From contig CANJQI010000042.1 in assembly GCA_947476215.1 (NCBI GenBank), forward strand, positions 1 through 34,152: a DNA stretch of 34,152 nt, given 5' to 3'. The translations under genes were made by a program, and so were the position numbers. This DNA is from Betaproteobacteria bacterium (lineage in GTDB: Bacteria; Pseudomonadota; Gammaproteobacteria; Burkholderiales; SG8-41). Shown piece after piece: positions 19,144 to 23,923 of the stretch. Below the pieces are notes generated by a model, which was given only the letters and a program-made list of their open reading frames with translations, made no database searches and was not told where the DNA came from. Every line of letters starts with the position of its first letter. Within the stretch, counting starts at the first letter, position 1.

Positions 19144-20210
19144 GCCGAACGATCATGATCATGGCAGGTGGCACCGGGGGCCATATTTTTCCCGCACTGT
19201 CGGTCGCGGACTATCTGCGTGCCAAGGGCTGGAACATCGTATGGCTGGGCTCGAAAGCGGGCATGGAGGCGACGTTGGTTACGCCCAGGGGATACGTCAT
19301 GGCGTGGATCAGCATGCACGGCGTGCGTGGCAAGGGGTGGTTGCGCGCAGCGCTGTTGCCGTTGCATCTGCTGATAGCCTTCTGGCAGAGTGCGTGCGCG
19401 ATATTCGCGCATCGTCCAGATGTCGTGCTCGGGATGGGTGGCTATATTTCATTTCCGGGCGGCATGATGGCGTCGTTGTTCAGAAAGCCGCTCGTGATAC
19501 ACGAGCAGAATTCAGTGGCTGGCCTCGCCAATCGCGTGCTGGCCAAAGTGGCCGACCGTGTCCTGACCGGTTTTCCAGGGGTCTTGGGCGCTTCAGCCGC
19601 GATGTCCTGGACCGGTAATCCAGTGCGCGAGGAAATCGCACATCTTGCACAGCCTGAACAGCGCTATCGGAGCCGTTCGGGGCCGCTGCGACTCACTGTC
19701 ATAGGCGGCAGTCTGGGTGCACAAGCGCTCAATGAAACGGTCCCGCAGGCTCTCGCGATACTGCCCGCAGCCGAGCGCCCGACGGTCACGCATCAGGCAG
19801 GTAATCGTCATCTGGATGCCGTGCGGTCCAGCTATCAGCGCGCCGGCGTATCGGCCGACTTGGTGCCGTTTATCGCCGATATGGCACACCGCTATGGTGA
19901 ATCCGACCTGATTATATGCCGTGCCGGTGCCTCCACCATCGCCGAACTCGCCGTCGCGGGCGTAGCCAGCATACTCGTGCCGTTTCCGTATGCGGTCGAT
20001 GACCATCAAACGCATAACGCGCGCTTTCTCGCCGACCATGGCGCCGCCATTCTGGTGCCGCAGCACGAACTGACGCCTCAAAAGCTGGCGGACCTGTTGC
20101 GTGGACTTACGCGCGACGCATTGCTGGTCATGGCGCAGCAGGCGCACCGTGTCGCAAAGCCGGATGCCACCCAAATGGTGGCTGAAGAATGCATGAGGCT
20201 GGCGGCGTGA
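19140..20210 (+). CDS. murG: Lipid II synthase: UDP-GlcNAc transferase MurG
   Basis: MurG transfers GlcNAc from UDP-GlcNAc to lipid I on the inner face of the membrane, making lipid II. The N-terminal glycine loop [13 protein letters not shown], the [11 protein letters not shown] and [14 protein letters not shown] segments, the second loop [10 protein letters not shown] and the UDP-GlcNAc-binding [11 protein letters not shown] with [14 protein letters not shown] are all present. At 356 residues it is one longer than E. coli MurG. It starts within the ftsW stop (ATGA). Its stop overlaps a GTG that begins a copy of the murC N-terminus, not murC itself. Confidence 0.97.
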
Positions 20211-20368
20211 AATACAAAGTCAAACGTGTGCACTTCGTAGGCCTAGGCGGGGCTGCCGCGAGCAGAGAGCAGGGTCCTGTCACGCGACGCGTGACAGGAT
20301 GCGAACGACCGCGAGCGGCACCAGCCGGCGCAACGTCCGTACAAATGAACGCAGGCGGTACACGGTGA
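20207..20368 (+). CDS. 53-residue ORF starting with a copy of the MurC N-terminus
   Basis: GTG at 20207 overlaps the murG stop (GTGA). The first 12 codons encode [12 protein letters not shown], identical to MurC residues 1-12; the two codon differences (GTC for GTA, GGC for GGT) are synonymous. The frame then diverges into an Arg/Ala/Gly-rich tail (for example [12 protein letters not shown]) without known domains. It stays open for 53 codons and stops at a TGA overlapping the true murC GTG, again as GTGA. It thus sits between murG and murC with the same 4-nt overlap on both sides. A perfect hairpin lies inside. A translated leader or adaptor is likely but unproven; a frozen duplication scar is the alternative. 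Confidence 0.5.
20275..20299 (+). other. Perfect hairpin inside the murC leader ORF
   Basis: An 11-bp stem (TCCTGTCACGC with GCGTGACAGGA) and a 3-nt loop. There is no T run after it, so it is not a standard terminator. It would form in the mRNA about 65 nt before the murC start and may pause ribosomes or protect the message. Confidence 0.6.
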
Positions 20369-21798
20369 AATACAAAGTAAAACGTGTGCACTTCGTAGGT
20401 ATAGCCGGCTCCGGCATGAGCGGCATCGCCGAGGTATTGCTTAACCTGGGATTTGGAGTGAGCGGTTCCGACCTGAACGACAATGCGGTAACGCAACGCC
20501 TGAAGGCGCTGGGTGCCCGGGTGATGCATGGTCACGCGCCTGGCAATATTGACGCCGCCGATGCAGTCGTGGTGTCGAGTGCGGTGAAGGACGACAATCC
20601 TGAAGTTGTTGCCGCGCGTGAACACAAGATCCCGGTAGTGCCGCGCGCCATCATGCTTGCCGAGCTGATGCGCCTGAAGCAGGGCATCGCGGTGGCCGGC
20701 ACGCATGGCAAGACCACGACCACCAGCCTGGTTGCGAGCGTGCTAGCTGAAGCGGGCATGGATCCGACTTTTGTCATTGGCGGTCGTCTCGAGGCGGCAG
20801 GATCGCATGCCAAACTCGGGAGCGGCGAATTTATCGTGGTCGAGGCGGACGAGTCGGATGCATCGTTTCTGTACCTCGCGCCGGTGCTCGCCGTGGTGAC
20901 CAATATCGACGCCGATCACATGGAAACCTACGGCCATTATTTCGGCCGGTTGCGCCAGGCGTTTCTAGACTTTGTGCAGCACCTGCCTTTCTATGGCACG
21001 GCAGTATTGTGCATCGACGACCCGAACGTGCGTGAAATCATGCCGGCCGTAACCAAGCCGATCACGACCTATGGGCTATCGGCAAACGCGCAAATACGCG
21101 CAGTCAATATTGTTGCCGACGCCGGGCGCATGCGTTTCCGTGTTGTACGGCGCGACGCCCGGGATGCGCCGTTGCCGGATCTCGATATCACGCTCAATCT
21201 GGCCGGGATGCACAACGTGCTCAACTCGCTTGCCGCAATCGCGGTCGGCATGGAGGTCGGTGCGTCGGATGCGGCCATCGTCAAGGCCCTGGCCGATTTC
21301 CGCGGCGTGGGGCGCCGCTTCGAGCGTTGCGGTGACATTGCGCTCAATCCAGAAAACAAGGGGAAAGGGCATTTCGCGCTGATTGATGACTACGGTCATC
21401 ATCCGGTGGAAATGTCCGCGACGCTGGAAGCGGTGCGAGGTGCTTTCCCGGGGCGACGCGTGGTGCTGGCTTTTCAACCTCACCGCTATACGCGAACACG
21501 TGATTGCTTCGAGGACTTCGTGAAGGTTCTGTCGACCGTGGACGTGCTGCTGCTGACCGAAGTGTATGCGGCGGGCGAAGCGGCACTGGTCGCCGCCGAC
21601 GGACGTGCGCTTGCCCGTGCGGTGAGGGTGCAGGGCAAGGTGGAACCGATTTTCGTCGAGCAGGTTGCCGACTTTCCACAAGCGATACGCAATGTGGTGA
21701 GAGACAGCGATGTGGTTCTCACGATGGGCGCCGGATCCATCGGTGGCGTCGCGGCGCTCATAAAAAAGCAGGGGCTTGGAATGAGGGATGAGGGATGA
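20365..21798 (+). CDS. murC: UDP-N-acetylmuramate:L-alanine ligase
   Basis: MurC adds the first amino acid, L-alanine, to UDP-MurNAc. Motifs seen are [17 protein letters not shown], the ATP loop GTHGKTTT (112-119), [29 protein letters not shown] and FQPHRYTRT. With GTG at 20365 the protein has 477 residues. An in-frame ATG at 20299 would add 22 residues with no family support, and the overlap with the leader ORF stop favours 20365. The last codons (MRDEG) are encoded by the heptad array that follows, so the C-terminus has been extended or replaced by repeat sequence. Confidence 0.97.
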
Positions 21799-21829
21799 GG
21801 GATGAGGGATGAGGGATGAAGGATGAGGG
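21781..21829 (+). repeat. Seven tandem ATGAGGG heptads at the murC/murB junction
   Basis: Seven contiguous units: ATGAGGG five times, then ATGAAGG, then ATGAGGG. Every unit contains ATGA, a combined start and stop. The third unit supplies the murC stop, and the seventh supplies the in-frame ATG of the longest murB form. A ribosome starting in one unit meets a TGA in the unit two further on, so the array can act as a chain of stop/restart sites, and GAGGG also resembles a ribosome binding site. Tandem heptads are prone to slippage, so unit number may vary between strains. Confidence 0.9.
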
Positions 21830-22860
21830 TGGCTGCCGTGCAATTGCAGACTGGCGCTCGCCCGACTGGCGGTCGTTATTCCGGGTTCGCGGGATGTATT
21901 GCGCATGATGGTGCAGACGTGACTTCAGCGACATTGCGCGGTGAACTGAGGATGGATGAACCCATGGCGCGCCATACGAGCTGGCGCGTGGGTGGGTGCG
22001 TCGAGCGCTCTTATCTGCCCGCGGACGTTGATGACTTGTGTGCATTTCTCGCCACGCTGCCGGAGAGCGAACCGGTTTATTTTGTCGGGCTCGGCAGTAA
22101 TCTGCTGGTGCGTGACGGAAAACTGCGTGGTACCGTGATTTTCACGCATGGCGCGCTCGCCCATATCCGTTTCGAAGGCAATGTCGTGCATGCCGAGGCC
22201 GGCGTGCCGAGTCCCAAAGTGGCGCGTTTTGCCGCCGTGCATGCGCTCGCCGGCGCTGAGTTTCTCGCCGGCATACCCGGCACCGTGGGCGGCGCGCTGG
22301 CGATGAACGCGGGCTGCTATGGCGGAGAAACCTGGAACATCGTTGAAAGCGTCACCACCGTCGACCGCGAGGGCCGGCTGCGTCAACGTACCCGCGCCAA
22401 CTATGAGATCGGCTATCGCAAAGTGTCTTTGACGACGGACTCGTCAGATGCCGTACTTCGAACTCATCCCTCATCCCACATCCGTCATCCTTCAGACGAG
22501 TGGTTCGTCGCGGCACGATTCAAGCTGCCGCGTGGCGACAGGGGCAAGGCGCGGGCAACCATCAAACAGTTGCTGGAGAAGCGCATAGCTTCCCAGCCGC
22601 TTAGTCAGCATAACGCCGGCTCGGTTTTCAGGAACCCCGAGGGCGACTACGCGGCGCGCCTGATCGAAGCCTGCGGCCTTAAGGGATATGCGTTGGGCGG
22701 CGCAGCGATTTCAATTCAGCACGCGAACTTCATAGTCAACACTGGCAGGGCACGTGCCGCCGAAATAGAGGCTTTGATCACCATTGCACATGACACCGTG
22801 CAGCAAAAGTTCGGCATAGACCTCCAACGCGAAGTGCGGATAGTGGGTGAGCACTCATGA
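21823..22860 (+). CDS. murB: UDP-N-acetylenolpyruvoylglucosamine reductase
   Basis: MurB is the FAD enzyme that reduces the enolpyruvyl group to make UDP-MurNAc. Motifs include [72 protein letters not shown] (with the catalytic serine of NAGS) and [17 protein letters not shown] in the last heptad gives 345 residues; an in-frame GTG at 21919 would give 313 and begins closer to the conserved region ([15 protein letters not shown]), so the start is uncertain. About 20 residues after GYRKVSL ([20 protein letters not shown]) come from an in-frame heptad insert absent from typical MurB. The stop overlaps the next ORF (ATGA). Confidence 0.95.
22465..22492 (+). repeat. Four CATCCCT-type heptads inside murB, in frame
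   Basis: CATCCCT, CATCCCA, CATCCGT and CATCCTT, contiguous and read through by murB. They are the reverse complement of the ATGAGGG units 640 nt upstream. Flanking ACTCGTC (left) and GACGAGT (right) form a further inverted pair, suggesting a palindromic element inserted in the coding sequence. Confidence 0.75.
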
Positions 22861-23015
22861 GCATTCGTCACTCTTCACTCCTAACTCCTCACCGCGACTT
22901 TGGAAAAGTCGCAGTATTGATGGGCGAGCGTGCCGGGCTCGGCGGGCGAAGCCGGGGCGGGCAGGTGCGCCGGGGCCGCCCAGGCGACGTCATCCGCGCA
23001 AGAGGTGTGGCATGA
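22857..23015 (+). CDS. 52-residue ORF containing a copy of the Ddl N-terminus
   Basis: ATG at 22857 overlaps the murB stop (ATGA). The product begins MS, has 11 codons made of TCACTCC-like heptads ([11 protein letters not shown]), then [10 protein letters not shown], identical to Ddl residues 3-12. Within these ten codons five differ from ddlB and all five are synonymous; the second codon also differs synonymously (AGC for AGT). A Gly/Arg-rich tail follows ([17 protein letters not shown]). The frame is open for 52 codons and ends in a TGA overlapping the true ddlB ATG (ATGA). The layout matches the murC leader ORF closely. The heptad insert of 33 nt keeps frame, hinting that the frame matters. 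Confidence 0.5.
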
Positions 23016-23923
23016 GTGACTTCGGGAAGGTAGCAGTACTCATGGGCGGCCGCTCCGCGGAGCGCGAGATTTCGCTGATGTCCGGCAACAATGTGCTGGC
23101 GGCACTGCGTCGTAAAGGCGTCAATGCACATGCATTCGATCCGGCTGAACGGACCTTGTCCGACCTCAAGACCGACGGTTTTCAGCGCGCATTTATCGTG
23201 CTGCATGGTCGCTTTGGCGAGGACGGCACTGTGCAGGGCGCGCTCGAATGGATGGGCATACCGTATACGGGCAGTGGTGTCATGTCATCTGCATTGTGTA
23301 TGGACAAGCTGCGCACCAAGCTGGTGTGGCTGGGCGCAGGGATATCCACGCCGCGTCACGCAGTGGTGAACGCAGCCAGCGATTGGGGATCGGTTGCGCG
23401 TGATTTGGGACTCCCGCTGATCGTGAAACCCGCCCGCGAAGGTTCCAGTATTGGACTGACCAAGGTAGGCACGATCGAGAAAATTCAGGCGGCATATGAT
23501 GTGGCCGCACGTCATGACTCGCTGGTAATCGCGGAGACATTTATTTCCGGGCAGGAACTTACCGCCGCATTCCTCGCTGACCGTGCACTTCCGCTGGTAA
23601 GAATAGAAGCGCCACAGGGTAACTACGATTATCAAAACAAGTACTTCGGTGACGAAACTCGCTACCACTGTCCGTGCGGGTTGCCCGCCGCGCAGGAGCA
23701 GGAACTGCAGGCGCTGGTGATGCGCGCGAAGGACGCATTGGGCTGCAGCGGCTGGGGACGCGCCGACTTGATGTTGCGCGACGACGGCAGGGTTTTTCTG
23801 CTGGAAATGAATACCACGCCGGGTATGACCGGCCATTCGCTGGTGCCCATGGCGGCACGCGCCGCGGGCCTTGAATTCGACGATCTAGTATTGCGTATTC
23901 TGGAGCTGGCGCATGTGGGATAA
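23012..23923 (+). CDS. ddlB: D-alanine:D-alanine ligase
   Basis: Ddl makes the D-Ala-D-Ala dipeptide used by MurF. The ATP-grasp protein shows [19 protein letters not shown] at the N-terminus, [62 protein letters not shown] and the metal-binding [17 protein letters not shown]. With ATG at 23012 it has 303 residues, close to E. coli DdlB (306). The start overlaps the leader ORF stop by 4 nt; the 3' end overlaps ftsQ by 11 nt. Confidence 0.97.

Follow-up and report, generated by a model that had tools for sequence, protein, structure and literature searches.

A small open reading frame between murB and ddlB as a probable displaced gene start left by a dispersed hairpin element

A small open reading frame (ORF) lies between murB and ddlB in a 34,152-nucleotide stretch of a betaproteobacterial assembly (hereafter the window). 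We consider it most probable, at roughly 0.7, that this ORF represents the native start of ddlB, displaced by the insertion of a member of a dispersed family of hairpin elements. The family adjoins gene starts in uncultured soil and groundwater bacteria, and is best read as a structured, MITE-like element that on insertion duplicates some 50-80 nt of its target. The first-pass annotation of the window had suggested a common mechanism at two junctions, and this is supported: the same hairpin family lies between the two start copies at murC in the window, and at both ddlB and murC in relatives.

The small ORF (22857..23015, plus strand; 52 codons) overlaps both neighbors by ATGA, as first described; its start overlaps the stop codon (22858-22860) of the upstream murB ORF (21823..22860, plus strand), and its own stop overlaps by 4 nt the start at 23012 of ddlB, the working gene (23012..23923, plus strand). 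It contains a displaced first copy of the ddlB start (copy 1; 22896..22925, plus strand), and the working gene begins with copy 2 (23018-23047), 122 nt away. Both copies encode the same ten residues, a string that occurs exactly twice in all six frames of the window. Direct codon comparison bears out the annotated difference in five of the ten codons; the six differing bases are all synonymous by the most direct path, or 5 synonymous and 1 non-synonymous when averaged over paths. Pfam confirmed the MurB, Ddl, MurC and MurG domains in the window genes and gave no match at E 0.01 for either of the window's two small ORFs.

The small ORF had been taken for the recoded copy, a view that is not supported, as the polarity at this ddlB looks reversed. 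In 10 of 15 relatives the functional start is nearer to copy 1 than to copy 2 (4 against, 1 tie). Copy 1 carries CACCGC and heptads, resembling the element-free start of the relative G014, which it matches at 28 of 30 positions, compared with 24 of 30 for its own copy 2. Copy 2 lacks the heptads and is therefore not a plain duplicate of copy 1. Judged from these comparisons, it is the working start, not the small ORF, that looks recoded. The 33-nt heptad tract is present as annotated (22863..22895, plus strand), within the displaced ddlB start, but the role in the mechanism ascribed to it is not supported, as element-free relatives carry heptads too: tracts were seen by eye in the real ddlB start of four of them (L005, L006, L010, L018). 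Such tracts are apparently native to ddlB starts in the clade and not special to the small ORF. The heptad types upstream of ddlB in these four loci differ (CTCGCCT, CTCAATC and GTGAACG, by eye).

The insert between the two ddlB copies (22926..22985, plus strand; ends approximate) is a degenerate member of the hairpin family, on the basis of its position, its outer stem, and the intact elements found at the same place in relatives. The outer stem is kept (22928-22934 with 22964-22970; all seven pairs form, two as G-T) and the GAGCAGGG core is gone; the covariance model of the family gives no match to this insert, and the folding of the region is not unusual (z -0.37). Within it, GCCGCCCA at 22975-22982 is complementary to TGGGCGGC of ddlB at 23043. 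The Gly/Arg-rich tail that had been noted as a feature of the peptide turns out to be translated hairpin; the frame in which this part is read changes from gene to gene, and we therefore rejected a peptide role for it.

The second junction, murG/murC, is real and has the 4-nt overlaps on both sides that were claimed for it (here GTGA), although the two ORFs are not of equal length (53 versus 52 codons). The murG/murC small ORF (20207..20368, plus strand) includes copy 1 of the murC start (20207-20263, plus strand). The core of a hairpin element (20267..20304, plus strand) separates it from copy 2 (20365-20421), the start of the working murC gene (20365..21798, plus strand), and the two copies are 82% identical. 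Downstream, at the murC/murB junction, there is an array of GGGATGA heptads (21778-21829), within which murC terminates (GMRDEG stop) and a start for the long murB ORF is available. Because a 7-nt repeat containing ATGA places ATGA in all three frames, the array may serve as a stop/start junction whatever the frame. The murB frame itself contains, at 22463-22494, a complementary heptad tract (CTCATCC...) that is 91% complementary to the array at 21782-21813. Elsewhere in the window, 6909-7228 matches class A RNase P RNA (E 1e-75), and 30960-31023 matches STnc390 below the gathering score and looks like a terminator hairpin.

In the family at large, the element core is GAGCAGGG-stem-GATGCGACC, enclosed within a covarying outer stem and separating two gene-start copies. 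The whole element, about 60-75 nt long, comprises a 7-bp outer stem, an internal stem, the GAGCAGGG/GATGCGACC core and a GCCGCC tail. The ddlB start is duplicated in 4 of 18 loci, including the window's own; in the relatives the insert is GAGCAGGG-stem-loop-stem-GATGCGACC, with the core intact in G004 (L007), G002 (L014) and G015 (L020), the last belonging to another genus. Duplications of the murC start were found in 6 of 30 loci (the window's own, G007, G012, G005, G015 and G032) and in 6 of 40 further loci (G088, G036, G090, G089, G067 and G054), the 40 being upstream stretches from 67 listed places, with L266 lacking the murC motif; L067 and L109 are further cases. The core is altered or partly deleted in the murC duplications of G088, G089 and G090, and absent from that of G004 (L240). 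One genome, G076, has the element and no copy 1 (L295), and the contig of G002 ends before murC copy 1 would begin (L237, L301). Many relatives carry no small ORF at all, and peptidase-E-like starts in relatives show the same architecture as murC and ddlB. At the murG/murC junction of L257 (G028, from another family), the murC start is duplicated around a different-looking insert without the GAGCAGGG core, possibly a second element family that behaves likewise.

The pattern GAGCAGGGN{4,34}GATGCGA occurs in 36 of 46 genomes, including 27 of 28 in the host family of the window, although many matches outside that family, and in some genomes within it, are stemless and chance-like. It reaches 27 matches per genome, versus 0 or 1 for the reversed control. 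A longer pattern, run against a collection of named genomes, matched 99 stretches; among 80 of the 99 titles, the single exception to a proteobacterial origin is an uncultured Williamsia, and most are betaproteobacterial assemblies. The covariance model places at least three copies in the window's genome, a lower bound since 150 of 2381 first-look candidates were scored. In a viral collection two stretches match the core pattern; a search of plasmids gave no near match of the murB/ddlB junction, and the Rfam 15 covariance models gave no match at the element regions. The core string gagcaggggcccc was absent from the literature searched, which left out most subscription papers, and we found no description of the element family there.

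Of 185 matches to the pattern, 142 had both a stem and sufficient flank, and 141 were classed. The outer stem, a 7-bp inverted repeat, was scored at fixed positions in 85 elements (the flush-geometry class and the rest class): at least six of the seven pairs form in 66 of them, compared with about 35% when partners are swapped, and each of the seven pairs shows several pair types. In 42 chosen elements, the 19 proposed pairs are formed in 95.9% of cells (85.2% when shuffled), a value inflated by the hand-picking of these elements, mostly pairing ones, from the 85. The same elements show 68 two-sided changes, versus 13.5 when shuffled, with kinship among the copies inflating the covariation figures; the middle helix has zero two-sided changes. 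REP sequences are short GC-rich hairpins with a conserved tetranucleotide beside the stem (GTAG/GGAG). In the present family GGAG precedes the stem, but the element is longer than a REP and three-part.

Some elements are arranged in pairs. In eight loci (L073, L086, L145, L146, L159, L171, L177 and L183), from several genomes, head-to-head elements come after a shared flank like AGCCCGAAGGGTTGCGGCC and have an inverted core copy behind them, which makes a longer composite repeat. Head-to-head elements also lie antisense in TctC-like genes near a PPDGxTLL motif (L154, L096); in L154 the open frame is kept as a 49-residue insert.

Direct flanking repeats with a score of at least 16 were found around 24 of 114 single elements, compared with 9 of 570 swapped pairings; at the other 90 elements the flanking repeat was not above the threshold, and 27 elements with a second core nearby were excluded from this test. 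The flanking copies are near-identical at L020 (ddlB), L060 (TctC-like), L067 (murC) and L248, and diverged elsewhere. The end of copy 1 is often GGCGG, some 12-16 nt ahead of the core, and the element seemingly ends about 26-30 nt past it; together these boundaries give an estimated duplicated stretch of about 50-80 nt. GGCGG corresponds to a Gly-Gly codon pair about ten codons into the gene, or lies within the ribosome-binding site. At a thiolase-like gene (L057) and two ferredoxin-like genes (L102, L080), so named by eye from their translations, the element sits at the 3' end and a leftover copy of that end follows the intact gene. We infer that the flanking repeats are target duplications and that the element is mobile.

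The reading frame across the elements is conserved, in agreement with the earlier proposal of selection for an open, coupled frame. A second class of elements (56 of 141) lies at junctions between genes, where an ATGAGC-like start immediately precedes the core; 2 of these have no left start, 3 are tandem, for 10 no gene was found, and 41 were counted. The small ORF is in the coupling frame, stopping at the start codon of the gene, in 36 of the 41 scorable junctions. The same holds for 23 of the 28 junctions whose hairpin or spacer length departs from the commonest pair (binomial 1.5e-7 versus one third, over junctions that are not fully independent). The overlap is exactly 4 nt in 31 of 41; L067 and L076, to which a start within murC was assigned, were scored as misses of this overlap, not of the frame. 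The remaining five of the 41 do not keep the coupling frame, and in two of them the small ORF would be joined to the gene as a fusion. Among 15 gene-copy junctions, seven have a spacing of -4, two of -8, one of -1 and one of 0, so that 11 of 15 fall from -8 to 0, and the others are at -11, +1, +15 and +19; in this comparison, which does not include L067, the L076 junction (the same as L252) has the 4-nt overlap. At a minority of sites, the TctC-like genes of L056, L060 and L154, the insert is in frame and the protein thus remains one chain. These results suggest that coupling is what is selected.

The displaced copy 1 itself evolves like coding sequence, to judge from its substitutions. Across 21 copy pairs, which omit the TctC pairs and three 3'-end pairs, we counted 69 synonymous differences and 11 non-synonymous ones (14% non-synonymous); the murC and ddlB pairs were chosen by location, and two peptidase-E-like pairs by repeat scan or by eye. 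None of 1000 neutral simulations gave so low a value. A freely drifting copy 1 would give 59-61% non-synonymous differences, and placing a tenth of the mutations in copy 1 would give 29%. A smaller set of 15 pairs gives 42.5 synonymous to 9.5 non-synonymous. In bases, the two copies are about equally distant from the functional starts of element-free relatives (copy 1 at 7.41 nt and copy 2 at 7.30 nt, 11 genomes), though in amino-acid distance copy 1 is further in 4 of 11 and equal in 7 of 11. Orthologous copy-1 sequences, from genomes that seem by eye to share an insertion, differ by 5:1, 6:1, 8:3, 5:2, 4:1 and 3:1 synonymous to non-synonymous changes. Two observations speak against constraint: the compared stretch ends at Gly, and the codon that follows, which was not counted, is often non-synonymously changed in copy 1; and copy 1 has been lost in G076.

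The amino-acid constraint on copy 1 is the least explained part of these results, and it gives some weight to the possibility, on the whole a doubtful one, that the mini-cistron is a functional regulatory gene, an old domesticated insertion in which the peptide, or translation through the hairpin, tunes the next gene. The 69:11 ratio, the biased orthologous copies and the kept frame would all be expected of such a gene. However, the constraint covers only the gene-homologous stretch, the remainder being hairpin in differing frames, and the small ORF is missing from many relatives. The leftover 3'-end copies are also biased to synonymous changes (30:14). As the constraint is limited to the gene-homologous stretch and extends to these leftovers, recombination fits better than a functional peptide. 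If the repeats underwent deletion or conversion with each other, defective copies would be exposed in essential genes; alternatively, copy 1 may be refreshed from element-free alleles.

Recombination of another kind would be involved if a native start had been joined to a diverged start from another lineage, by short-homology recombination at GGCGG. Two functional alleles would be expected to differ at synonymous positions only, and the window's ddlB, with a copy 1 nearer to G014 than to its own copy 2 and a copy 2 without heptads, conforms to this. Import is nonetheless improbable, given the near-identical copies at L020, L060, L067 and L248 and the orthologous copy-1 sequences, which seem to have continued to evolve under constraint after a shared insertion.

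We regard it as slightly less credible still that RAYT (Y1) transposases move the elements as REP-type repeats and that the gene-start copies arose separately by hairpin slippage. The REP-like hairpin, the GGAG before the stem, the head-to-head pairs and the tandem arrays all recall such repeats, and 19 of 29 genomes have matches to Y1_Tnp (PF01797). However, 30 Y1_Tnp loci, with about 1.5 kb per side where present, contained four loose pattern matches, none of which had a stem by eye, and G017 (a genome 81% complete) has 13 pattern matches and zero Y1_Tnp matches. Slippage should moreover repeat the hairpin, whereas in the single cases just one hairpin lies between the gene copies. No mover gene was found in the 30 Y1_Tnp loci or between paired cores. 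Of six gaps between paired cores (250-5000 bases), those of L113, L237 and L248 appear to be murC/ddlB pairs in one cluster, and the ORFs of the other three, like those of the viral locus L306, included no transposase recognizable by eye.

That the window is an assembly chimera of strains, whose copies would likewise differ synonymously, has next to no likelihood in view of the same architecture and hairpin in other genomes, the many independently named assemblies, and the regularities of frame and spacing; for the family as a whole, recurrence in independent assemblies refutes it. The search of relatives that the first-pass annotation proposed thus found the arrangement in other genomes and other assemblies, and neither absence from near relatives nor a mixture of strains, the two grounds on which it might have fallen, applies.

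Under the preferred reading, insertion of a hairpin element that displaces the native start, the element would enter behind GGCGG, for which the GCCGCC in the element is a possible pairing partner, and repair or copying of the target would leave the long duplication. The ribosome-binding site, the start codon and the first codons would then recur downstream of the insert, where the gene restarts and thus stays whole. Ribosomes leaving the upstream gene would translate through the displaced start and pass to the gene at the NTGA overlap by termination-reinitiation. Two arrangements would persist, a mini-cistron leading into an NTGA overlap or an in-frame insert, and insertions after which translation is no longer continuous would be eliminated, either by polarity or because coupling is lost. 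More tentatively, the family may represent a new class of mobile structured element that homes to GGCGG, in Gly-Gly codons or ribosome-binding sites, perhaps guided by GCCGCC; its 50-80 nt duplication would rebuild the gene, and the displaced start would become a translated mini-cistron under amino-acid selection that couples essential cell-wall genes.

The closest known kinds are the palindromic inserts in frame in Rickettsia genes and the REP elements. Rickettsia palindromic elements are described as short structured dispersed repeats located in frame inside unrelated protein genes (PMC10969869). The in-frame inserts in TctC-like genes (L056, L060, L154) resemble them; the long flanking duplications that rebuild gene starts, the NTGA-coupled small ORF, the core and the host clade are different. 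This comparison is by description, the sequence-level comparison being that with Rfam. REP/BIME sequences, according to PMC3733652, are hairpin repeats in tandem and head-to-head layouts with many copies per genome, and the present family shares all of these traits. It differs in that no RAYT gene was found beside a core in the 30 Y1_Tnp loci, that elements occur at gene starts and inside genes, and that gene-start copies flank the element on both sides.

Like MITEs, the elements are short, geneless and flanked by direct repeats (24/114 versus 9/570), although the repeats are far longer than usual, and here the duplication would be selected to rebuild genes. The outer stem is a 7-bp inverted repeat, but no transposase and no terminal inverted repeats of a known IS were identified, and no parent transposon was recognized in the paired-core gaps and L306. 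IS1549 and IS1634 are recorded as having long variable target repeats, from 8 to 514 bp (PMC2266710), so that the length of the duplication alone is not unprecedented. In overlapping gene pairs, spacings of -4, -1 and -8 are reported to be enriched (PMC12548453). The same spacings (-4, -8, -1) occur here, with the difference that the coupling cistron is a by-product of insertion that repeats the start of the gene into which it leads.

An insertion near the start of an essential gene should kill, yet the family shows repeated occupancy of murC and ddlB without breakage. These genes would tolerate the element because the start recurs downstream and translation is continuous through the overlapping mini-cistron. 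It also presents an insertion process with unusually long duplications and, in the amino-acid-level constraint on a gene fragment that seems to serve no purpose, a testable puzzle. The family offers dozens of natural tests of translational coupling, and may be a source of new small ORFs.
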